From Desulforamulus putei DSM 12395 (GTDB lineage: Bacteria > Bacillota > Desulfotomaculia > Desulfotomaculales > Desulfotomaculaceae), in contig NZ_FQUY01000004.1 in the NCBI RefSeq assembly GCF_900129195.1, positions 67,582 to 131,581 of the forward strand: 64,000 nucleotides of DNA. Direction: 5' to 3'. The first letter of the stretch is position 1, and each line of letters opens with the position of its first letter. Made by a program: the position numbers and the translations under genes. The notes under the pieces are model-generated. The model was given only the letters and a program-made list of their open reading frames with translations, was not told the DNA's origin and made no database searches. Positions 13,885 to 63,921 of this stretch are shown piece after piece.

Positions 13885-13986
13885 CGTGGAGCGCAAGACT
13901 CAAGAGAACCGTCCCCTTGATTCCCGTGGAGCGCAAGACTCAAGAGAACCGTCCCCTTGATTCCAAGAGAACCGTCCCCTTGATTC
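13885..13986. repeat. Tandem AGAACCGTCCCC hairpin repeats (three copies)
   Basis: A 40-base unit (CGTGGAGCGCAAGACTCAAG plus AGAACCGTCCCCTTGATTC) occurs twice head to tail from 13885 and 13925, followed by a shortened third copy at 13964-13986. The last copy ends on the stop codon of the small membrane protein gene. Confidence 0.8.
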
Positions 13987-14267
13987 TAAGGCGAAAGAAT
14001 TCTTTCTATAGTCTTAAATATTGGGCGGGTAACGGTTTCAATGCCCTTTGTAACATTCGGTATGGGCAGTTGCAAAACTTGACCCAGACTTAAAGTGATT
14101 CCAAGGGCAATCAAAACAAAGAAAATTACCATTTCGCGGTAAATTTTTTGTTTAATTAACCTGGGTAGCTCTATGGCGACGATAACCGCAAAGCCGGTTA
14201 AAATCAGCAAAACATTTAACAGCATACTCAACCATCCTGTCTCAAAGGGTTTGAGTTTTAATTGCAA
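13986..14267 (-). CDS. Small membrane protein at the end of the ger operon
   Basis: 93 residues with two membrane segments (LLNVLLILTGFAVIVAIELP and VIFFVLIALGITLSLG) and a basic stretch between them. It follows the GerC lipoprotein stop by 4 bases, so it is part of the operon. Small membrane proteins at this position are known in some clostridial ger operons (GerD/GerX-like additions vary), but I do not recognise a named family. Presumed to act in or near the germinant receptor complex in the spore inner membrane. Confidence 0.65.
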   Translation of the reverse strand: MQLKLKPFETGWLSMLLNVLLILTGFAVIVAIELPRLIKQKIYREMVIFFVLIALGITLSLGQVLQLPIPNVTKGIETVTRPIFKTIERILSP

Positions 14268-45311: not shown

Positions 45312-46211
45312 TCAGTTTCTTGTTCCCAGTACTACCGCCTGAGCCTCTTCAATTGTTCCTGCTGTGTAAATGCTGTTTATTATCCGGTTCAGCTCGTCCA
45401 GGCTGGAAATACCTCTCACCTGTTGCTGCAGCCCCAGTGATGCTGTGCCAAACCTGACTCCGAGGTATTTGCAGATGGCTTCCTGGGCCATTTCTGCCTT
45501 GCCCCTGGCCTCAGCCTCCGCCCTCTCTTCCTTGACCCACTCCTGGAATATGGGTGATTCCATGACCATTTCCCTCCTTATCATCGAAAGCACCAGATCC
45601 GGCGGAAACTTGCCGCCGGCCAGTATCGCCATCACCGCCAACAGGTCCAGCTGCAGCACTTCGTCCTCTATCTCCTGCACCGCGGCCATGCTTTCCCTCA
45701 TCGCCTGCTCCGGGGTCTCGTCGTCGTCCTCGCCCCGCATCAGCGGCAGCAGGGGGTACAGTCCCACCAGTCGGCTTGCTATGACCGGCTGCCTGCGCTC
45801 GTCCCACACCCGTATCACCGTGTAGGAGTACTCCAGCAGCCCTCCGTCCCACCTATCCCGCAGCCTGTGCAGGCCGTTATCGTCATCCTGGAAGAAGAAC
45901 ACGACCACTTGCCTTATCGGCGGCGTCCCCCTTCCGTCCGTCAGGGTGGCTTCCCATATGTCGCTCCTGTAGCGGAGCATCCTGGCGGGGAGCGCGTTGT
46001 CCCGGTAACCCATCGGCTCGAAGTTGAGCAGGTACTGCCCGCCGGGGTCGGTTATCTCCAGCACGCTGTCCAGCCTCGATTCTTTCTTCGGGGTGTAGTT
46101 CGTCTTGAATTTCGTCACCCACTCTTCCCTGCAGCCCGGCTGCACGTACCTGGCCCAGTCCGCCGGCCTGAGTTCGATGAGTTTCTTTATCGGTATGTCG
46201 ATCTTGGGCAT
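45312..46211 (-). CDS. Rpn-type putative recombination-promoting nuclease / transposase-like
   Basis: 299 residues. The N-terminal 150 residues show the PD-(D/E)XK-like core of the Rpn/YhgA family: RLDSVLEITDPGGQYLLNFE and PARMLRYRSDIWEA near 45-90, with RQVVVFFFQ after. A hydrophilic acidic stretch follows (RGEDDDETPEQAM), then PIFQEWVKEERAEAEARGKA and a helical C-terminus of the DUF4351 type. Rpn proteins promote RecA-independent DNA transfer or cleave DNA. It is bracketed by the two hairpin repeats at 45221 and 46696. Confidence 0.75.
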   Translation of the reverse strand: MPKIDIPIKKLIELRPADWARYVQPGCREEWVTKFKTNYTPKKESRLDSVLEITDPGGQYLLNFEPMGYRDNALPARMLRYRSDIWEATLTDGRGTPPIRQVVVFFFQDDDNGLHRLRDRWDGGLLEYSYTVIRVWDERRQPVIASRLVGLYPLLPLMRGEDDDETPEQAMRESMAAVQEIEDEVLQLDLLAVMAILAGGKFPPDLVLSMIRREMVMESPIFQEWVKEERAEAEARGKAEMAQEAICKYLGVRFGTASLGLQQQVRGISSLDELNRIINSIYTAGTIEEAQAVVLGTRN

Positions 46212-52637: not shown

Positions 52638-53921
52638 TTAAGCAACTTCCTGTAATAACGGTCTTTTGATGTCATTCAGCATCTTCTGGGGGTCATAAGC
52701 TGTACCTTTTTTTAGCAATGCGAAAAATATTCGGATTAGCTTGCAACTCAGCAATATCAAAGACTGCTTCTTCTTTAGCGGGTTCTTATCCCTGGTGGTA
52801 TAGTGGCTGTGCAGCTCACGGAACTCGGGGTTATTAGCTGTCACCGGCATGATTCCCTGGAACAGCAATGCCCTTAACCGCCGTCGCCCCCGTTTGCTGA
52901 TAGTTGTCTGGCCTTTGTGTTTACCGGAACTGTTCTCTTTTAAACTTAGACCAGCCAGTTTCTGTATCTGTTTAGGATGTTCAAACCTACTGATATCGCC
53001 AACTTCTGCTATGAAACCTGCTGCGGTAACAAGGCCAATGCCCTTTATTTTAAGCATTTCAGGCAAGCCCGGTATCTGGTACGCAAGTTGCTCAATAATA
53101 ACCATTGTCCGCTCATAATGCCGCATTCTCATTTCGTAGTCTTCAATCAATATTGCAAGGTCATTCTCTGCAGCAACCAGCCCTTCACTCACTCCGACTG
53201 ATTTCCTGGCAGCCTCTATCAGCGCACTTGCTCGCTTCCTTCCTACTGCTCTCAGCTTATCCTGCTTCCATCGGGCAATAATTCCATCCACACCTGTTTC
53301 AAGTACTCTGGCCGGCGTTGGAAATTCTTTTAACGCTATCAGTGCGGCTTTTCCTTCCCAGTCACCAAATACTTTGTTGAATTCAGGGAAGTATATGCTA
53401 ATCCACCGCTTTACGCGGTTTCGTATTGCGTTTAATTGCTTCACTATCTGCCAGCGTGTTTCCATAGCCGTCCTCAATTCGCTGTATATGCCTTCCGGTA
53501 TATATGGCTCCATGTATCTGCCATCCTTTACAAGCATCGCTATGGTCTTCGGGTCCTTCCGGTCATTTTTGGTCGGATTGTTGTCATCCACTTCCTTGCT
53601 CCGTTTTACATGAAACGGATTCACCAGTACTATTCTCATCTTGTGATCCTTAAGATACGGAGCTATGTTGAACCAGTAATGACCTGTCGGCTCCATGCCG
53701 ACCATTACATCGTGCTTGTTACACCTGGCTTTGATTTCTTCTACCCATAATGCGAATTTCTTGAAGCCTTCTGCATCATTGCTAAACCTAATCAGTTTGC
53801 TAAGTTCAACGCCTCTCTGGTCAAAGGCTCTGGCATAATGAGTTTCGCTGGCAATGTCCACGCCGACAATTAAAGTTTTTTCTGTGACTTGCAGAATCTT
53901 TTCATTCTGGGTATACTTCAT
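52638..53921 (-). mobile_element. IS110-family transposase (DEDD type)
   Basis: 427 residues, full length. N-terminal DEDD domain: IVGVDIASETHYARA (Asp), GMEPTGHYW (Glu), NPTKNDRKDPKTIA (Asp pair). C-terminal part: KIKGIGLVTAAGFIAEVGDI (helix-hairpin-helix type) and AGLSLKENSSGKHKGQTTIS with the conserved Ser of IS110 recombinases. It is intact and inserted in the polysaccharide cluster. The ribosome binding site GGAGGT is seven bases ahead of ATG 53921 and lies in the arm of the hairpin described next. Confidence 0.93.
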
Positions 53922-56268: not shown

Positions 56269-57369
56269 TCACGATAGGATTCCTGTTGCCTTAAAACGCG
56301 CTGGCCATGAGTTGTTTGCTCTAAATTTCTGAATTTCCTCCATATCCGGCCAGTATATCAGTGCCTCGCTTATCAGGTCATTGATACTCTGGTATTCATA
56401 ACTTAGGTATGTTCCTTTTTCAGCAGCCCTTAAAGTCATTTCGCCAAAGGCTGTAGATACAACAGGTAAGCCCAGTGCACGGTATTCGTAATACTTGATT
56501 GGATCAACCGAAGCGGTAAGCTCGTTCAACTTAAACGGAATTAAGCCCACATCGAAATCTAGCATTGCCTGCAATGCCACCGTATGCTCAAGGGCGGGCA
56601 GAAATTCTATATTGCTTGGTAAGTGACAGGGAGGAGGCATAAGAACCGGTCCAATTAATCGCACTGTATCCTTTGGACGAACCCTAGCCAAAGTAATCAC
56701 CCAGTCCCAATCAAACCAATTTCCTACCGTCCCCACATATCCCAGCACTTTTTTACTCCTCTGGCTTACCTTAAACTTTGGAGTAGGCAAGACATTAATA
56801 TCTAACCCATTACGTACAAGGCGCACATCACCTCGAATTTCGAGCCACCGTTTCTGTAAAGTAGTTGAGGATGCGAAAAGGTGAGTTACCCTTCCCGCGA
56901 GCGACTTCTCCCTTGCTGCCATGGCCAAGCGAGAAATACCAGAGTAAAAGGCTGGAAAGTTATCCATCGCATCGTAAAGGAACGGAATACCATTCATACT
57001 CTTCAGCATCTCAAGCGCAAGAACCGAGGGCTTTCCAATAGCAACCATGGTCGGTGCTTTAAGGGCAAAGCAAATAATATCCTTTAAAAGACCCCTCCAG
57101 AAAATTCCATTCACCCACCCAGAGGCAGGCATCGGTTCGATCGGCAAAGCACGCGGACGAACTACTGTTAGCCAATGAGGGATACGGTAACTAACTATAT
57201 CTTTTCTAACACCAATCCGCCTCCAATCACCCCATGCAGGGAATCTGGTCGGGTATGGATCAACCCACAAAACATTGCCACCCGAATACTCATGAAACCA
57301 CTCTACAAACTTATGTGGGCGCTGGGAGAAACTGAACCATGGAACTGGCGACAAATACACCAGTTGCAT
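56269..57369 (-). CDS. Glycosyltransferase (GT4-like)
   Basis: About 366 residues from the ATG at 57369 (GGAGGG upstream); the upstream frame to 57423 lacks a site. The N-terminal half opens LVYLSPVPWFSFSQRPHKFVE, typical of wall-polysaccharide glycosyltransferases. The C-terminal half has VLGYVGTVGNWFDWDWV and GLIPFKLNELTASVDPIKYYEYRALGLPVVST, the donor-binding Glu region of GT4-type enzymes. It adds a sugar from a nucleotide donor in the cytoplasm. The same architecture appears in the middle part of the 1010-residue protein at 57607. Confidence 0.82.
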   Translation of the reverse strand: MQLVYLSPVPWFSFSQRPHKFVEWFHEYSGGNVLWVDPYPTRFPAWGDWRRIGVRKDIVSYRIPHWLTVVRPRALPIEPMPASGWVNGIFWRGLLKDIICFALKAPTMVAIGKPSVLALEMLKSMNGIPFLYDAMDNFPAFYSGISRLAMAAREKSLAGRVTHLFASSTTLQKRWLEIRGDVRLVRNGLDINVLPTPKFKVSQRSKKVLGYVGTVGNWFDWDWVITLARVRPKDTVRLIGPVLMPPPCHLPSNIEFLPALEHTVALQAMLDFDVGLIPFKLNELTASVDPIKYYEYRALGLPVVSTAFGEMTLRAAEKGTYLSYEYQSINDLISEALIYWPDMEEIQKFRANNSWPARFKATGILS

Positions 57370-57606
57370 CTGGAAAACCCTCCTTATACATTGACGATCT
57401 GCCAAGCGAAAAGCCACTATCAATCAATAATACCTTGGGCCATCTACCTGTAGGCATACCCTTCGTTGAACATCTTTGGTTCTTTTAGCTCATATATTAA
57501 CAAAGAGTCTTACAACCCCCAACAAAACGGCTTCAAGGCACTCGGTTTTATCCCAACAAGGGTGAGAGATGAGCAAAATGCTGAAATCCAATGTGAATTG
57601 TCTCTT

Positions 57607-60600
57607 TTACTGACGATACTGATGTGGGATCCAAGCCCCCCATTTTTTTTCGTATATCATCTTATTTTTTTCAAAGAGCTCCATTTTTTCTTCACTTTTA
57701 AGCATATTGAATGACGCAGATAAATGATGGTGAATAAACACATCCTCGGCGCATACGATACGAAGTCCAGCGGCTTCAACCCGCCGACAGTAGTCGTCGT
57801 CTTCAAAGAATCCGATTCCATAATCCTCGCATAGCGGGCCGCATTTCTCGTATGTTGAGCGTGGCATCATGACGCAAAAAAAGGCAAGGGTGCGTATTGG
57901 AATAATCTTACCCATATGGGTCAAGGTGTAGCAAAACGCTTCCTCTGACATTTGCGACATGTCTTGGTATGTTGTCTCTATGCGTTGCTCATTACCAATA
58001 TTGTTGGTAACAGGACCAATGAGTCCAATCGTAGGATCATCCTGCAAGTGTCGCATCAACGTTATAGCCCACCCCCGGGTTACCACAGTGTCGTTATTAA
58101 GTATTACAAGGTATTCGCCTGTCGCTGCGGCTAAGCCAACGTTATTCCCGGCCGCGAAACCAAGGTTTTTGTCGTTTAAGATTAGCCTTACCTCGGGATG
58201 CTTATGACGGAACTCTTCAAGGTAGTCACGAGTACCGTCGACGGAGTTATTGTCTACCACGATAATTTCTAGATTAGGATAATCGGTCTGATACACGAGG
58301 CTTTGCAAACAAGCTCTTGTTAGCTCGAGATTGTTATACGTCAAGACAATCACGCTAATCTTGGGCATATTGATATTGTCGAAAACGTCACAAAGTACTG
58401 CAACCCTCTGATCCCATGTCTGCTGCAAAGCAAAATCCTTACGGGCTCTTACTTCTTCCTCCGTACCACTGTTTGACACTAAGGCTTGTCCCACCAAATG
58501 TATAAATTCATCTGCCGATTGTGCTCTCAAAACTAAATTCCCGAACTGCTCCATTTCTGGAAGATCAACACACACAACAGATTTTCCAGCAGCTAAGTAT
58601 TCATAGACTTTAACAGGGTTAGTAGCCAGTGTTAGGGAAAGAACTTTAAATGGCAAAAGGCAAACATCAAAAGCATGTAGATAAAATGGTAGACGAGCGT
58701 ATGGAACCTCTCCAGTAAACAATACGTTTGGCAGGCTACCGAGGAATGATTTTGCACCAATAGTGTCATTGCCAATAAGCAAAATCAGGCAATCCGGATA
58801 TGCAATAGCGACCTTTTGAATGAGGTCAACATCGAACCATTCTGCGATAGCACCGTAGTAACCAATGATTTTCCTGCCATTACGGTCCTTATATACCTCA
58901 TAGGGCTCGTTAGCAAAATGGTCATACTCACAGGCATTTCGCACCAAACAGATATTAGTGTTAAAAGGACGTGCAAAGTCTTCAAGCCAAGCAGATGATA
59001 CAACTACTAAATCAGCCTGCCGGAGCATATCTTTTTCTATCTCGATTAGTTTCTTCGGAACATTACCGAATCCCTCGTGGTGATCCATGCAGTCGTAGAC
59101 TCTTATACTGTTTGGTATGCGTTGAACTACCGGGTACCAATAGGCATGTTGAATAAGCGCAACAATCGAACTTGCACCGAAATCTAGAATGAACTGCGCA
59201 ATACCTTCCTCTAGCATCTTTTCTGCATCTGACGTTGGTGGTGCAAAATAAATTGCCGGTGCACCCTTAACGTGCAACTTGATCTGGTAAAGAGACAATG
59301 ATGGATCTAGCTGCTCAATTTGATATCCAGGCTTATCGGTGTCAATAAAGTGATTACTGAAAAAAAATACTCTCCGCCCCATCTTAGCAAGGCTACGAGC
59401 AAAATGCTGAGGTCGTTGGAAGCGAAAATTCCAGTCAATTATCGAAAACACAAATATATCCCTTTCTTGAGTTTGATCGGCCTGGGCAAGGATCCGCTGA
59501 CCGGAAATTTGTACAGTCATCATCTCCTGCCTATCAGCACTCCTATTGCTACTAGAGCGGAATGGGTGTAACATAGCCATTGCGGTTTTTTTGAGGCGCT
59601 GCTTTACACCCATGCTCAGTGGAAGGGATCTGTACACATAGCGCGCCAGCTTATAAAGGTGTTTCCTCAATGCATGGGAGACAGGGTTCGCATCGATATG
59701 CGCTGCCCAGTCTGATAAACGCATCATTTCCTGACGAAGCCGCTCTGTTGCAGCATCCCGCTCGACCACCGCCTGGTTGAGGCTGGCTATATGCTTATCA
59801 CGTTCGGCTATGGCTTGGTTGAGACTGGAGATCTGCTCGTCACGCTCGGCCACTTCTTGATTGAGACTGGCTATCTGCCTATCAAGCTCGGCCACTGCCT
59901 GGTTTAGGCTGGCTATCTGCCCGTCGCGCTCTACCAATACACGCTCATTCATAACCTTTGAAATAATAAATATATCAGCTAGAGTTAACTTTAATGATTT
60001 AAGAATTCCTGTATGTGCATAAACAAGTAGTATTTGCTCGCCAGGCCAATAACTATTGCTCTCTTCTTTAGCGTCAATTATAACACTATGCACCAAATGC
60101 CATCCATTAATAAGGTTTATCGATATATTATTAAAATCAAACGTCGTAAAGTGTTCTGCGATTCGTTCATATTCACGAAAAGGTAACAATAGAATTAGGA
60201 ATTTTTTTGCTCTCTCTTGTATACGAGACAACACATATAAATAATCCTCGAAATGCTCGAGTGTATTGGACGAAAACACTATGTCATAAGTTGGTCCTTC
60301 ATTATTGGCTATGAAATCCATACATAAGAACTTGCAATTTTGATAGGTAGATTGTGCTTTTTCTATTGCTTTTTCTGAAAAATCAATACCAGTTACATAA
60401 TTACTATTAAAGAATTCAGCTAATTCGTTAGTTCCGTCTCCCAGTGCACATCCCCAATCGCAAATGGATAATTTTTCTTTTTTTACGTATTGTATTAGCC
60501 ATGTAGGTAAATGTTTTAAAGCTATATAGCTAAAAAAACGGGATTGTTTCCTACCCTGGTTGATTTCCCAATCAGTTTGAAAACGATATTGCCAATAATC

Positions 60601-60639
60601 TTTTGAATTTATTTCTATATTTGAAGATTTTTCAACCAT
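57607..60639 (-). CDS. Multidomain protein: methyltransferase, coiled-coil repeats, GT4-like and GT2 glycosyltransferases
   Basis: 1010 residues in one frame. Residues 15-200: class I methyltransferase with ICDWGCALGDGTNELAEFF. Residues 237-293: four tandem 14-residue repeats (ERDxQIASLNQAVA type), a coiled coil. Residues 395-750: GT4-like enzyme with FRFQRPQHFARSLAKMG, IIGYYGAIAEWFDVDLI and ATNPVKVYEYLAAGKSVV. Residues 758-1000: GT2 enzyme with VIVLTYNNLELTRACLQSLV, VDNNSVDGTRDYL and LNNDTVVTRGW. It begins 1 base after the ABC ATPase stop. It probably builds and modifies the terminal part of the polysaccharide. Confidence 0.88.
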   Translation of the reverse strand: MVEKSSNIEINSKDYWQYRFQTDWEINQGRKQSRFFSYIALKHLPTWLIQYVKKEKLSICDWGCALGDGTNELAEFFNSNYVTGIDFSEKAIEKAQSTYQNCKFLCMDFIANNEGPTYDIVFSSNTLEHFEDYLYVLSRIQERAKKFLILLLPFREYERIAEHFTTFDFNNISINLINGWHLVHSVIIDAKEESNSYWPGEQILLVYAHTGILKSLKLTLADIFIISKVMNERVLVERDGQIASLNQAVAELDRQIASLNQEVAERDEQISSLNQAIAERDKHIASLNQAVVERDAATERLRQEMMRLSDWAAHIDANPVSHALRKHLYKLARYVYRSLPLSMGVKQRLKKTAMAMLHPFRSSSNRSADRQEMMTVQISGQRILAQADQTQERDIFVFSIIDWNFRFQRPQHFARSLAKMGRRVFFFSNHFIDTDKPGYQIEQLDPSLSLYQIKLHVKGAPAIYFAPPTSDAEKMLEEGIAQFILDFGASSIVALIQHAYWYPVVQRIPNSIRVYDCMDHHEGFGNVPKKLIEIEKDMLRQADLVVVSSAWLEDFARPFNTNICLVRNACEYDHFANEPYEVYKDRNGRKIIGYYGAIAEWFDVDLIQKVAIAYPDCLILLIGNDTIGAKSFLGSLPNVLFTGEVPYARLPFYLHAFDVCLLPFKVLSLTLATNPVKVYEYLAAGKSVVCVDLPEMEQFGNLVLRAQSADEFIHLVGQALVSNSGTEEEVRARKDFALQQTWDQRVAVLCDVFDNINMPKISVIVLTYNNLELTRACLQSLVYQTDYPNLEIIVVDNNSVDGTRDYLEEFRHKHPEVRLILNDKNLGFAAGNNVGLAAATGEYLVILNNDTVVTRGWAITLMRHLQDDPTIGLIGPVTNNIGNEQRIETTYQDMSQMSEEAFCYTLTHMGKIIPIRTLAFFCVMMPRSTYEKCGPLCEDYGIGFFEDDDYCRRVEAAGLRIVCAEDVFIHHHLSASFNMLKSEEKMELFEKNKMIYEKKWGAWIPHQYRQ
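59761..59931 (-). repeat. Four tandem 42-base repeats in the coding sequence
   Basis: Each 42-base unit codes for 14 residues (ERDGQIASLNQAVA, ELDRQIASLNQEVA, ERDEQISSLNQAIA, ERDKHIASLNQAVV). They lie between the methyltransferase and glycosyltransferase parts. Such repeats can vary in number between strains. Confidence 0.8.
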
Positions 60640-60640
60640 A

Positions 60641-61963
60641 TCATTCTGACCCCTTATTTATTACTTTGTGTTTTACTTTCGGTACAAAAACCCCAAAGTA
60701 TTTATGCTTAAATAGTGTGGCAAAATATTGAGCTCCTTCAACATACTCATAATATTGGATAGTTGGTGCTGCTCGGTCTTCAATAGCAGCTACAAGCATA
60801 TACTTGCCTGTGTTCAAACAGTTTTCAAGTTCAAAAATTACCTCAATTGTATCTCCCTCACATTCAAGACCTAATTGTTTATTGTCCCATGTTGTAGAAA
60901 CTATAAGATCCGTACCTTTTAAATCTTTGAATGAAAACGCAACACTTAGCGTTTTACGGTTACACCCAGGTGGTACCCGAAAGAGAATACGCACTTGCAT
61001 TCTTTCCCGATTTACAAAAACATTTTTTTTGTTACCTTGAGTATCATAAATGCCAGCATCTAAAATTATACCTTTATGCGTTCCCCAGTGATTTACTGGC
61101 TGTTCTTCCTTTTCCGCGTGAACCTCTTGATAAAAACTTAAATCATTTTGTACTAAATTAGTTTGGTGTTCAATCACCTCAAATGTCTGTTTTAATTCGT
61201 CTCCAAATAAGTATTCCACATAATGGGCAGTCAAGGCAAAAACATCGCCATAACGCCGAATGCACCCTCTATCTAACCATATGGCATTGTCACAAAGTGT
61301 GCGCACGGAACTCACATCATGTGATACAAACAGTATACTAGCACCACTTACCTTTAGTTTCTTTATTCGATCCATACATTTTGATTGAAATTTTGCATCA
61401 CCTACGGCTAATGCCTCATCTACAATTAAAATTTGAGGTTTAACGCTAATCGCCACAGCAAAAGCCAATCTAACATACATTCCACTTGAATATACTTTTA
61501 CAGGCTGATCTATAAACTCACCAATATCGGCAAAAGCAACGATATCATCGAAGCAGGCATCGATTTCCTCTTTGCTAAGGCCGAGAACCGCGCCGTTCAT
61601 GTATACATTCTCTCGTCCCGTGAACTCCGGATTAAAGCCAGAACCCAGCTCCAGAAGTGCCGCAATGCGGCCGTAGGTCTCCACTGTGCCACTGGTGGGG
61701 GTAAGGGTGCCGCAGATAAGTTGCAACAGCGTTGATTTGCCTGACCCGTTACGCCCGATGATGCCGACAGTTTCGCCTTTTTTTACCTCGAAAGATACGT
61801 CTTTGAGCGCCCAGAACTCACGAAAGTAGTTTTTCGGCTGTCTGCCAACAAGCCGTTGCAAACGGGGAACAATATACTGCTTAAGCCGATCCTGGGGCCG
61901 GTCGTAAATGTGGTAACACTTGGAGAGATTGCTGACCCTGATAGCAATATCATTAGATGACAT
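60641..61963 (-). CDS. ABC-type polysaccharide export ATPase (Wzt/TagH-like) with C-terminal domain
   Basis: About 440 residues from the ATG at 61963 (GGAGGGGG upstream). Walker A GIIGRNGSGKSTLLQL at about residue 67, signature VYSSGMYVRLAFAVA near 155, Walker B ILIVDEALAVGD near 180. The last 170 residues are a soluble beta-rich domain, as in Wzt proteins that recognise the end of the finished polymer. It powers the partner permease, whose stop overlaps its start by 11 bases. Confidence 0.93.
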   Translation of the reverse strand: MSSNDIAIRVSNLSKCYHIYDRPQDRLKQYIVPRLQRLVGRQPKNYFREFWALKDVSFEVKKGETVGIIGRNGSGKSTLLQLICGTLTPTSGTVETYGRIAALLELGSGFNPEFTGRENVYMNGAVLGLSKEEIDACFDDIVAFADIGEFIDQPVKVYSSGMYVRLAFAVAISVKPQILIVDEALAVGDAKFQSKCMDRIKKLKVSGASILFVSHDVSSVRTLCDNAIWLDRGCIRRYGDVFALTAHYVEYLFGDELKQTFEVIEHQTNLVQNDLSFYQEVHAEKEEQPVNHWGTHKGIILDAGIYDTQGNKKNVFVNRERMQVRILFRVPPGCNRKTLSVAFSFKDLKGTDLIVSTTWDNKQLGLECEGDTIEVIFELENCLNTGKYMLVAAIEDRAAPTIQYYEYVEGAQYFATLFKHKYFGVFVPKVKHKVINKGSE

Positions 61964-62849
61964 CTGCAAACCCCCTCCGAGTTTTCTGAAACCACCAAAA
62001 GCCAGTGGCAGCGACAGCCAATCCTGCTAGCAATGTGACGCCCAGAGCAGGCCAGTCAGGCAAACTTCCAAAAACTAATACCTTGCGGCTTTCTTCGATG
62101 ATAAGTGTGAGCGGGTTAAGGTGCAGCCAGACCTGGTATTCCTTAGGCAACGCTGATATCGGATAGAACACGGGTGACAAGAACATGAGCACCGTGGTGA
62201 AAATACCGGTAATCTGACCTATGTCGCGCAAATAAACTCCCAGCGCCGCCAAAAACCAGGCAAAACCCATGCCAGCAAATACAAGAGGTAACAGTACCAG
62301 CGGAAAAAACACGCTGGTCCAAGGCAGAGACTGGTTGATGATAAGTTGCGCCAGCAATAATACAAACGTACTCACAAGACTATTAAAAAGGACTGATCCC
62401 ATGGCCACCCAGGGTAAAATTTCTAAAGGAAAAACTACTTTTTTAACATAATTAACATTGGAAAGAATCAGCCCTGGCGCCCGGTTAATACATTCAGCAA
62501 AGAGGCTGTGTACGATCATGCCTACAAAAAGAATGATGGCAAAGTCGGCCTTGCTTTCTTCTCCTCCCACACCCCAGCGGGCTTTAAACACGACGGAGAA
62601 GACGAAAGTGTAGACGAATAGCATCAGCACCGGGTTAAAAAAAGACCAGGCCAGGCCCATAACCGAACCGCGGTAACGGCCCAGTATCTCGCGCCGGGTC
62701 ATCTGACGGATAAGACTGCGGTTGCGCCAGAGGCTCATGAACATGGCCATAGGTGTGGCGGGATGAGCTTGATGGGGGTTCATGCCAACAGCATCGTCTT
62801 TGGCAATGGACGGATGCATTTTTCTTTGAAGAGCTGACTCATGACTCAT
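61953..62849 (-). CDS. ABC-type polysaccharide export permease (Wzm/TagG-like)
   Basis: 298 residues with six membrane segments after an N-terminal basic part (RREILGRYRGSVMGLAWSFF), typical of ABC-2 type polysaccharide exporters. FLSPVFYPISALP and PLTLIIEESRKVLVFG are the usual C-terminal features. It forms the channel for the polymer made by the glycosyltransferases in this cluster. It overlaps the ATPase gene downstream. Confidence 0.92.
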   Translation of the reverse strand: MSHESALQRKMHPSIAKDDAVGMNPHQAHPATPMAMFMSLWRNRSLIRQMTRREILGRYRGSVMGLAWSFFNPVLMLFVYTFVFSVVFKARWGVGGEESKADFAIILFVGMIVHSLFAECINRAPGLILSNVNYVKKVVFPLEILPWVAMGSVLFNSLVSTFVLLLAQLIINQSLPWTSVFFPLVLLPLVFAGMGFAWFLAALGVYLRDIGQITGIFTTVLMFLSPVFYPISALPKEYQVWLHLNPLTLIIEESRKVLVFGSLPDWPALGVTLLAGLAVAATGFWWFQKTRRGFADVI

Positions 62850-62907: not shown

Positions 62908-63921
62908 CTACCTATTGCCATACACCCGCTGATAGTATTCTCTATATTCACCTTGCCGTACTTTGTCCAGCCATTCTTTATTTTCCTGGTACCACTTAAT
63001 TGTTTCTTTTATCCCCTTTTCAAAAGGGTACGATGGTTCCCACTCCAGTTCCTTCTTTATTTTCGTTGCGTCAATGGCATAACGCCTATCATGTCCGGGC
63101 CTGTCTGTTACAAACTTAATCAGGGATTCCGGTTTATTAAGGATTTCTAATATCGTCTTTACAATTTCAATGTTTTTCCTTTCATTGTTGCCGCCGATAT
63201 TATAAACCTCGCCCGGTTTTCCGCGGTGGAGTACTGCATCTATAGCACGGCAGTGATCTTTCACATGTAGCCAGTCCCGTATGTTAAGACCATCTCCGTA
63301 AACCGGAATTTCTTTATCCTCCTGAGCGTTGGCAATAATCAAAGGTATTAGTTTTTCAGGAAATTGATAGGGTCCATAGTTATTGGAGCATCTTGTAATA
63401 TTAACCGGCAATTTAAAGGTCTCGTAATAGGCTCTCACCAGCATATCCGCCCCGGCCTTGCTGGCGGAATAGGGACTGTTGGGAGCCAGGGGGGTTTCTT
63501 CGGTAAAATAGCCGGTTTCTCCCAGGCTGCCATAAACCTCGTCGGTTGAGATTTGTACAAATTTATCAATTTTATTTTTAAGGGCTGCATTAAGAAGAAT
63601 CTGCATCCCCATCACATTTGTGCGTATAAAAATTCCAGGGTCTTCTATACTCCGGTCAACATGGGATTCTGCGGCAAAGTTAATGATATAGTTGACCCCT
63701 TCTGATACCAGTTGATTAACCAGGGAGCCATCGCAAATATCACCTTTGACAAAGGTATAATTCGGGAGGTTTTCTACCTCGGCTAAGTTCTCCAGGTTAC
63801 CGGCATAGGTTAGCAAATCAAGGTTTATTATTTTGTATTCAGGATATTTATCCAGCATATATTTGATAAAATTACTGCCGATAAAGCCTGCTCCGCCTGT
63901 TACTAATATTTTTTTCATCAT
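62908..63921 (-). CDS. rfbB: dTDP-glucose 4,6-dehydratase
   Basis: 337 residues. It makes the keto intermediate of dTDP-rhamnose and other deoxysugars. NAD-binding KILVTGGAGFIGSNFIKYM at the start, LDLLTYAGNLENL near 35, AAESHVDRSI near 82 and YSASKAGADMLV with catalytic Tyr near 155; NRCSNNYGPYQFPEK follows. GAGGTGGC lies just upstream of the ATG. It lies upstream of the exporter genes and 18 bases after the rfbC-like gene at the window edge. Confidence 0.96.
   Translation of the reverse strand: MMKKILVTGGAGFIGSNFIKYMLDKYPEYKIINLDLLTYAGNLENLAEVENLPNYTFVKGDICDGSLVNQLVSEGVNYIINFAAESHVDRSIEDPGIFIRTNVMGMQILLNAALKNKIDKFVQISTDEVYGSLGETGYFTEETPLAPNSPYSASKAGADMLVRAYYETFKLPVNITRCSNNYGPYQFPEKLIPLIIANAQEDKEIPVYGDGLNIRDWLHVKDHCRAIDAVLHRGKPGEVYNIGGNNERKNIEIVKTILEILNKPESLIKFVTDRPGHDRRYAIDATKIKKELEWEPSYPFEKGIKETIKWYQENKEWLDKVRQGEYREYYQRVYGNR

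Follow-up and report, generated by a model that had tools for sequence, protein, structure and literature searches.

The 64,000-nucleotide stretch of Desulforamulus putei DSM 12395 analyzed here (the window; contig NZ_FQUY01000004.1, positions 67,582 to 131,581) contains a gene for a 1010-residue protein in which a methyltransferase domain, a repeat coil, a GT4-like glycosyltransferase and a GT2 glycosyltransferase follow one another in a single chain. We consider it probable that this protein both polymerizes and, by methyl capping, terminates a glycan that the Wzm/Wzt transporter exports, and that the locus has been shaped by recombination.

In the mechanism that we propose, for which we infer all the enzymatic activities, the chemistry of the cap and the control of length by the coil, the GT4-like and GT2 domains would elongate a lipid-linked glycan within the cytoplasm. 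The N-terminal methyltransferase, held about 77 helix residues away, would methylate the growing end and so stop extension, after which the C-terminal domain of Wzt would read the cap and the Wzm/Wzt exporter would move the chain. This order of events, from extension through capping and recognition of the cap by the Wzt C-terminal domain to export, is that of the established pathway (PMC11231755, PMC9445017). For its part, the cap writer (the methyltransferase) and the cap reader (the Wzt C-terminal domain) would have entered jointly as one block, inserted by recombination between wzm with the 5' part of wzt, which the host's order conserves, and the shared coil of repeats, with the polymerase half varying separately beyond the coil.

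Domain organization of the protein and its exporter

The gene occupies positions 57607 to 60639 on the minus strand, and translation of this open reading frame was uninterrupted over 1010 codons. A preliminary description, made from the sequence without database searches, had read it as a methyltransferase, a repeat coil, a GT4-like and a GT2 enzyme, and this reading was borne out by Pfam and by a structure model. Pfam placed a methyltransferase at residues 54 to 150 (E 9e-12), a weak GT4/group-1 match at residues 609 to 715 (E 2.5e-6) and a strong GT2 match (PF00535) at residues 762 to 931 (E 2e-30). The model used was made from an alignment of 30 sequences and reached a mean predicted local distance difference test (pLDDT) score of 84.8; a single-sequence model, with a mean pLDDT of 40.5, was set aside. 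The 30-sequence model contained a methyltransferase fold (residues 13 to 216), a single helix (residues 232 to 308, with block pLDDT values mostly of 66 to 76), linker helices (residues 319 to 357), a two-lobed GT-B unit (approximately residues 394 to 754) and a GT-A unit (residues 761 to 1000). Foldseek matched the modelled units to retaining GT-B enzymes and to GT-A enzymes.

Four segments of the minus strand were delimited in this way. The methyltransferase, the predicted cap writer, corresponds to residues 1 to 229 (59953 to 60639; guanine-plus-cytosine [GC] content 0.316), as judged from Pfam, conserved motifs and GC. The coil comprises residues 230 to 315 (59695 to 59952; GC 0.55), as indicated by its tandem repeat, its periodicity, the modelled helix and its DNA similarity to coils of the host's order. 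The GT4-like GT-B glycosyltransferase spans residues 387 to 755 (58375 to 59481; Pfam, NCBIfam and Foldseek), and the GT2 (GT-A) glycosyltransferase residues 756 to 1010 (57610 to 58374; Pfam and Foldseek).

Inactive methyltransferase residues had been named beforehand as an observation that would refute the proposed role. The motifs D61-W-G-C-A, G67, D86-F-S, F122 and S124-N-T were intact, and invariant in a 16-row alignment with 15 relatives. Similarly, the NND and EDDD motifs of the GT2 domain were invariant across 30 aligned rows. Neither the Pfam scan nor the modelled domain order revealed a WbdD-type kinase in the protein.

The wzt (60641 to 61969) and wzm (61953 to 62849) genes lie directly upstream on the same strand, and the earlier statement that an exporter with a C-terminal Wzt domain adjoins the gene proved correct. 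wzm encodes an ABC-2 permease (PF01061, E 7e-29). In wzt, an ATPase part (residues 1 to 255, 61205 to 61969; ABC_tran in Pfam), whose residues 1 to 198 are conserved in the host's order, is followed by a C-terminal domain (residues 256 to 442, 60641 to 61204; GC 0.356; Wzt_C, PF14524, E 1.4e-19), which is the predicted cap reader. A 17-row profile of this domain matched the cap-binding domain of Aquifex Wzt (E 2.5e-4), which binds a 3-O-methyl cap (PMC9445017). The function guessed in the preliminary description was a reasonable one.

Co-inheritance of the methyltransferase and the Wzt C-terminal domain

A scan of genome contigs gave 63 loci, of which 18 had a homologous methyltransferase preceding the glycosyltransferases; the arrangement occupied a single frame in 17 of these and was split in L046. 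wzm and wzt were found upstream on the same strand in 16 of these 18; for L018, whose contig starts close upstream, no usable Wzt was found. Elsewhere, the same polymerase was preceded by other N-terminal domains, and the 10 N-terminal parts scanned included other methyltransferases, weakly matched sulfotransferase-like domains, a hexapeptide acyltransferase with Capsule_synth, and GT4. In the acyltransferase case, at L042:6009-8579, the same GT4-GT2 polymerase is preceded by a hexapeptide acyltransferase and a capsule-synthesis domain (PF05159).

The polymerase tree had 58 rows, after six of the 63 loci had been dropped (four cut at the 5' end, L063 and L070). A further eight rows without a usable Wzt were left out (L018, L020, L021, L025, L050, L052, L059 and L068). 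Of these, L018 and L021 have the methyltransferase, and the partial match of L018 to the Wzt C-terminal domain scored 45 bits, below the 80-bit line. This left 50 rows that had GT4-GT2 together with a usable Wzt. The methyltransferase was accompanied by the matching Wzt C-terminal domain in 17 of them and the other 33 had neither, with no discordant row. On the polymerase tree, the presence of the methyltransferase needed 11 changes, at least 7 of them forced by starred branches. All seven independent pairs agreed (sign test, p 0.0156), and this test, like the distance-correlation and class-comparison tests below, followed sight of the pattern, its p-value describing the pattern and not proving it.

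Two blocks stood out in distance matrices from 17 loci. The correlations were 0.90 between GT4 and GT2 and 0.89 between the methyltransferase and the Wzt C-terminal domain, while those across blocks were lower, from 0.64 to 0.71 (methyltransferase with GT2, 0.66; Wzt C-terminal domain with GT2, 0.64).

These results bear on whether the methyltransferase might be an internal or decorating enzyme that methylates along the chain, the coil being a mere flexible or oligomerizing tether. The wide range of spacers between methyltransferase and GT4, with no known chain length to match them, would suit such an enzyme: 157 residues in the window protein, 110 to 327 in the 17 single-frame relatives. However, the co-inheritance with the Wzt C-terminal domain and the methyl-cap reader of Aquifex suit a terminal cap best, and we regard a decorating role as unlikely.

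Mosaic structure of the locus

Four loci of the host's order were 75 to 80% identical in DNA to the window (blastn) from about position 62790 to position 61376 or 61398, that is, over wzm and some 198 codons of wzt. The similarity ended there and came back, in three of the four, at position 59931 or just inside, within the coil repeats; in the fourth (G032) it was regained in the coil only at higher sensitivity. The segment in between (59932 to 61376, minus strand), which holds the methyltransferase and the part of wzt that starts near residue 199 and runs to the end of the gene, gave no DNA match to loci of the host's order by blastn. It is low in GC and is a putative exchanged cassette, delimited by the blastn breaks, the GC profile and the comparison of classes described below. 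The GC content changed in steps, from 0.49 in wzm and 0.46 in the 5' part of wzt to 0.36 in its 3' part and 0.32 in the methyltransferase, and then to 0.55 in the coil and 0.42 to 0.45 in the glycosyltransferases.

When 113 genomes of the order were searched with Wzm alone, 13 matches were obtained, and 8 of these, the window included, had at least 73% identity; in the seven other genomes Wzm was 73 to 84% identical. Five of these seven had first been spotted by their coils and the remaining two by Wzm only. Searching 398 genomes of the phylum for the coil added three loci, which made 11 with the same exporter. Three unrelated classes of terminator were distinguished among them: A, the window's (1 locus); B, another methyltransferase (5 loci); and S, sulfotransferase-like (5 loci). 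Class S comprises L112, L118, L120, L111 and L134 and has its own Wzt C-terminal domain; PF13469 matched L118, L120 and L112 below the cut-off, and L111 and L134 were classed by their similarity to L118.

Across the 11 loci, the N-terminal part of Wzt was 84% identical within classes and 82% between them. In contrast, the Wzt C-terminal domain was 63% identical within classes (72% without L135) and 26% between them, and the terminator domain 67% and 28%, respectively. Compared with the Wzt of the other loci, that of the window fell from an identity of approximately 0.75 to less than 0.5 at residue 200, and each terminator class was paired with its own Wzt C-terminal domain in 10 of the 11 loci. 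For its part, one polymerase type (70% identity over 548 residues, with ends of the polymerase halves that we chose) followed a terminator of class S in L112 and one of class B in L119. Beside the same exporter, the protein at L134:7557-8732 consists of a terminator and a repeat coil (392 residues) and ends without glycosyltransferases.

The coil contains a tandem repeat with a period of 42 bp at positions 59754 to 59931. Its lag-14 self-score was 157, against at most 46 among 5000 shuffles of that stretch. The preliminary description had reported four nearly identical 14-residue repeats; the repeat is real, although "nearly identical" is slightly strong, since the four units (VERDGQIASLNQAV, AELDRQIASLNQEV, AERDEQISSLNQAI and AERDKHIASLNQAV) agreed pairwise in 9 to 11 of 14 residues, and a fifth is degenerate. 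The estimated number of units was 5.5 in the window protein and ranged from 3.8 to 10.5 among intact proteins with the same exporter, the range leaving out proteins truncated at a contig end or interrupted by a run of N. The varying spacer length among relatives is what a ruler would allow, and a ruler role for the coil is plausible, although it is the least supported step of the mechanism. The idea that the repeat motif characterizes the protein family was rejected; the strict repeat was absent from all 17 single-frame relatives with the same methyltransferase.

At the DNA level, the window coil gave 59 to 119 bits with seven sequences from six of the seven other genomes of the order with a close exporter, in which the terminators and polymerases attached to the coil differ from the window's. 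The seventh genome (G065) gave no coil match as DNA, and 54.7 bits as protein. Judging from these comparisons, the coil repeats are common to proteins with unrelated end domains, a mosaic that the preliminary description had overlooked. In another family of the phylum, the protein at L131:2987-5623, whose N-terminal part is cut by the contig end, joins the window's type of polymerase to these 14-residue repeats, of which it has about nine or more.

Sharing of the coil could also arise from convergent or biased low-complexity sequence, and the mosaic from fast divergence of the Wzt C-terminal domain and the terminator. Coils do diverge fast, a weak form of the 14-residue repeat occurs in the proteobacterial relative L008, and approximately unbiased (AU) tests did not reject a single clade for class B or class S. 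However, the coil DNA was 69 to 80% identical in the six genomes with a close exporter, whereas the 17 relatives sharing both end domains gave at best 44.6 bits, 8 of them without a match. Moreover, terminators of different families (methyltransferase and sulfotransferase-like) distinguish the classes, a difference beyond the reach of divergence, and we hold convergence to be improbable. An artefact of gene prediction or assembly, with separate genes wrongly fused across the repeats, is most improbable, given the window frame open throughout, the 17 of 63 loci with the same domain order in one frame and the coherent model, even though repeats do break other assemblies (the G034 contig stops inside the coil and L111 has a run of N there).

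We infer from these patterns an exchange of cap-writer/cap-reader cassettes with the coil as the joint. More tentatively, and with slightly less than even confidence, we suggest a general plug-in scheme, in which the exporter core and the 42-bp-repeat coil would be two recombination sites. A matched cap pair would be swapped between them as one block and polymerases would be swapped beyond the coil, which would act as both spacer and joint; the pairing would then predict the cap, including a possible sulfate-type one.

Several observations weigh against polymerization and methyl capping at a recombined locus. The window is the sole class A locus among the 11, and in L135 (G161) a class B terminator stands next to a Wzt C-terminal domain of a fourth kind, 24 to 30% identical to those of the other four class B loci. 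The exporter tree mixes the classes, yet the AU test does not reject a single clade for B (p 0.073) or for S (p 0.15). In the co-inheritance comparison, 13 of the 33 negative loci carry a Wzt-like frame on the opposite strand and are hence weaker negatives, and L021 bears the methyltransferase with no Wzt in its locus. The correlation between the N-terminal part of Wzt and the methyltransferase reached 0.87 in the 17 loci, so that Wzt as a whole may be inherited along with the methyltransferase in proteobacteria. Finally, methylation by WsaE in vitro has been reported to be independent of chain length (PMC2943079).

Relation to known systems

A terminator fused to two glycosyltransferases had been thought new. 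This view does not hold: ORF6 of Klebsiella O7 and WsaE are published, besides the 17 single-frame relatives found here. The methyltransferase-coil-two-glycosyltransferase architecture is already known, and the new part is the mosaic.

WsaE, from the S-layer glycan system of Geobacillus stearothermophilus (PMC2943079, PMC3898925), was compared by its published description. It likewise has an N-terminal methyltransferase and two glycosyltransferase domains in one chain, the latter being rhamnosyltransferases (PMC2943079), and its cluster likewise has adjacent wzm and wzt, rml genes and a sugar-1-phosphate initiating transferase in a Gram-positive host. A methyl cap is predicted to be its export signal (PMC2943079, PMC3898925). 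Unlike the window protein as read here, WsaE makes its polyrhamnan together with WsaF, and no length ruler is claimed in the excerpts describing it.

ORF6 of Klebsiella pneumoniae O7 (PMC11231755) shares the N-terminal methyltransferase, the central coil, described there as a ruler marker, and two C-terminal glycosyltransferases, with rml and wzm/wzt genes in the cluster. In ORF6, however, a kinase and a carbohydrate-binding domain also precede the coil, whereas in the window protein the methyltransferase alone does; its chains end in methylphosphate, and both its glycosyltransferases are GT2, against GT4-like plus GT2 in the window. WbbB of Klebsiella O12 (PMC11231755) likewise combines a terminator, a coil ruler and two polymerase domains, but its terminator is a Kdo transferase and the window's a methyltransferase. 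WbdD of Escherichia coli O8/O9a (PMC3482155, PMC11231755) has a methyl-based cap, a coil and a Wzt cap-binding domain, the cap being predicted in the window; it is a separate protein that recruits WbdA, whereas the window's two glycosyltransferase domains lie in the same chain, and its O9a form has a kinase that the window protein lacks. With the coil-type terminators of the WbdD, WbbB and O7 ORF6 kind, the window protein shares a predicted terminating enzyme at the distal end of the coil and a Wzm/Wzt exporter with a predicted cap-binding Wzt C-terminal domain.

If the cassette reading is true, it provides genomic evidence that the terminator and the Wzt C-terminal domain are a matched pair, a pairing shown in the laboratory for a few O antigens. 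The cap chemistry of unknown surface glycans would then be easier to predict from the paired domains, and the coil would be a natural joint at which such polymerases recombined. A sulfate-type cap, if class S terminators make one, would be an unusual termination chemistry. A census by Mann, Kimber and Whitfield (2019) reportedly deals with the same class, by its title chain terminators and Wzt carbohydrate-binding modules, and the architecture may be listed there. No report of cassette exchange was recognized in our literature searches, most of whose listed papers were unopened, and absence from print is not claimed.

Gene neighborhood and host

Upstream of wzm lies an rmlB-like gene for a dTDP-glucose 4,6-dehydratase (62908 to 63921, minus strand), named from its translation by sequence recognition without a family search. 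Past the window edge (L088) are genes that we take, likewise from sequence recognition, to be rmlC-, rmlA- and rmlD-like, together with an initiating transferase (PF02397) and a gene resembling a Wzy_C/TPR ligase, both found with Pfam. Downstream of the 1010-residue gene, a second GT-B-like gene of 384 residues (56269 to 57423, minus strand) is TuaH-like (NCBIfam TuaH, E 2.8e-11, below the cut-off; no Pfam match) and is likely an adaptor or side-chain transferase.

The host genome gave 0 matches for LpxC, 1 for Spo0A and 26 for SLH. A reading of the polymer as lipopolysaccharide (LPS) O antigen was disfavoured, the host having no LpxC match. Since Spo0A and SLH proteins are also present, the polymer is probably not LPS and probably an S-layer or wall glycan in a spore-forming host. 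The SLH matches and the Wzy_C/TPR ligase-like gene would be consistent with attachment to a presumed S-layer target protein, and the gene cluster is similar to those reviewed for S-layer glycans (PMC2943079).

The genes at window positions 45312 to 46211, without a Pfam match, and at L088:11795-12367 flank the polysaccharide region on both sides, and their C-terminal ends look alike. Within this region, an IS110-family transposase (PF01548, PF02371) lies at positions 52638 to 53921. Elsewhere in the window, positions 13885 to 13990 contain a perfect 40-bp direct repeat that overlaps a 23-bp repeat.
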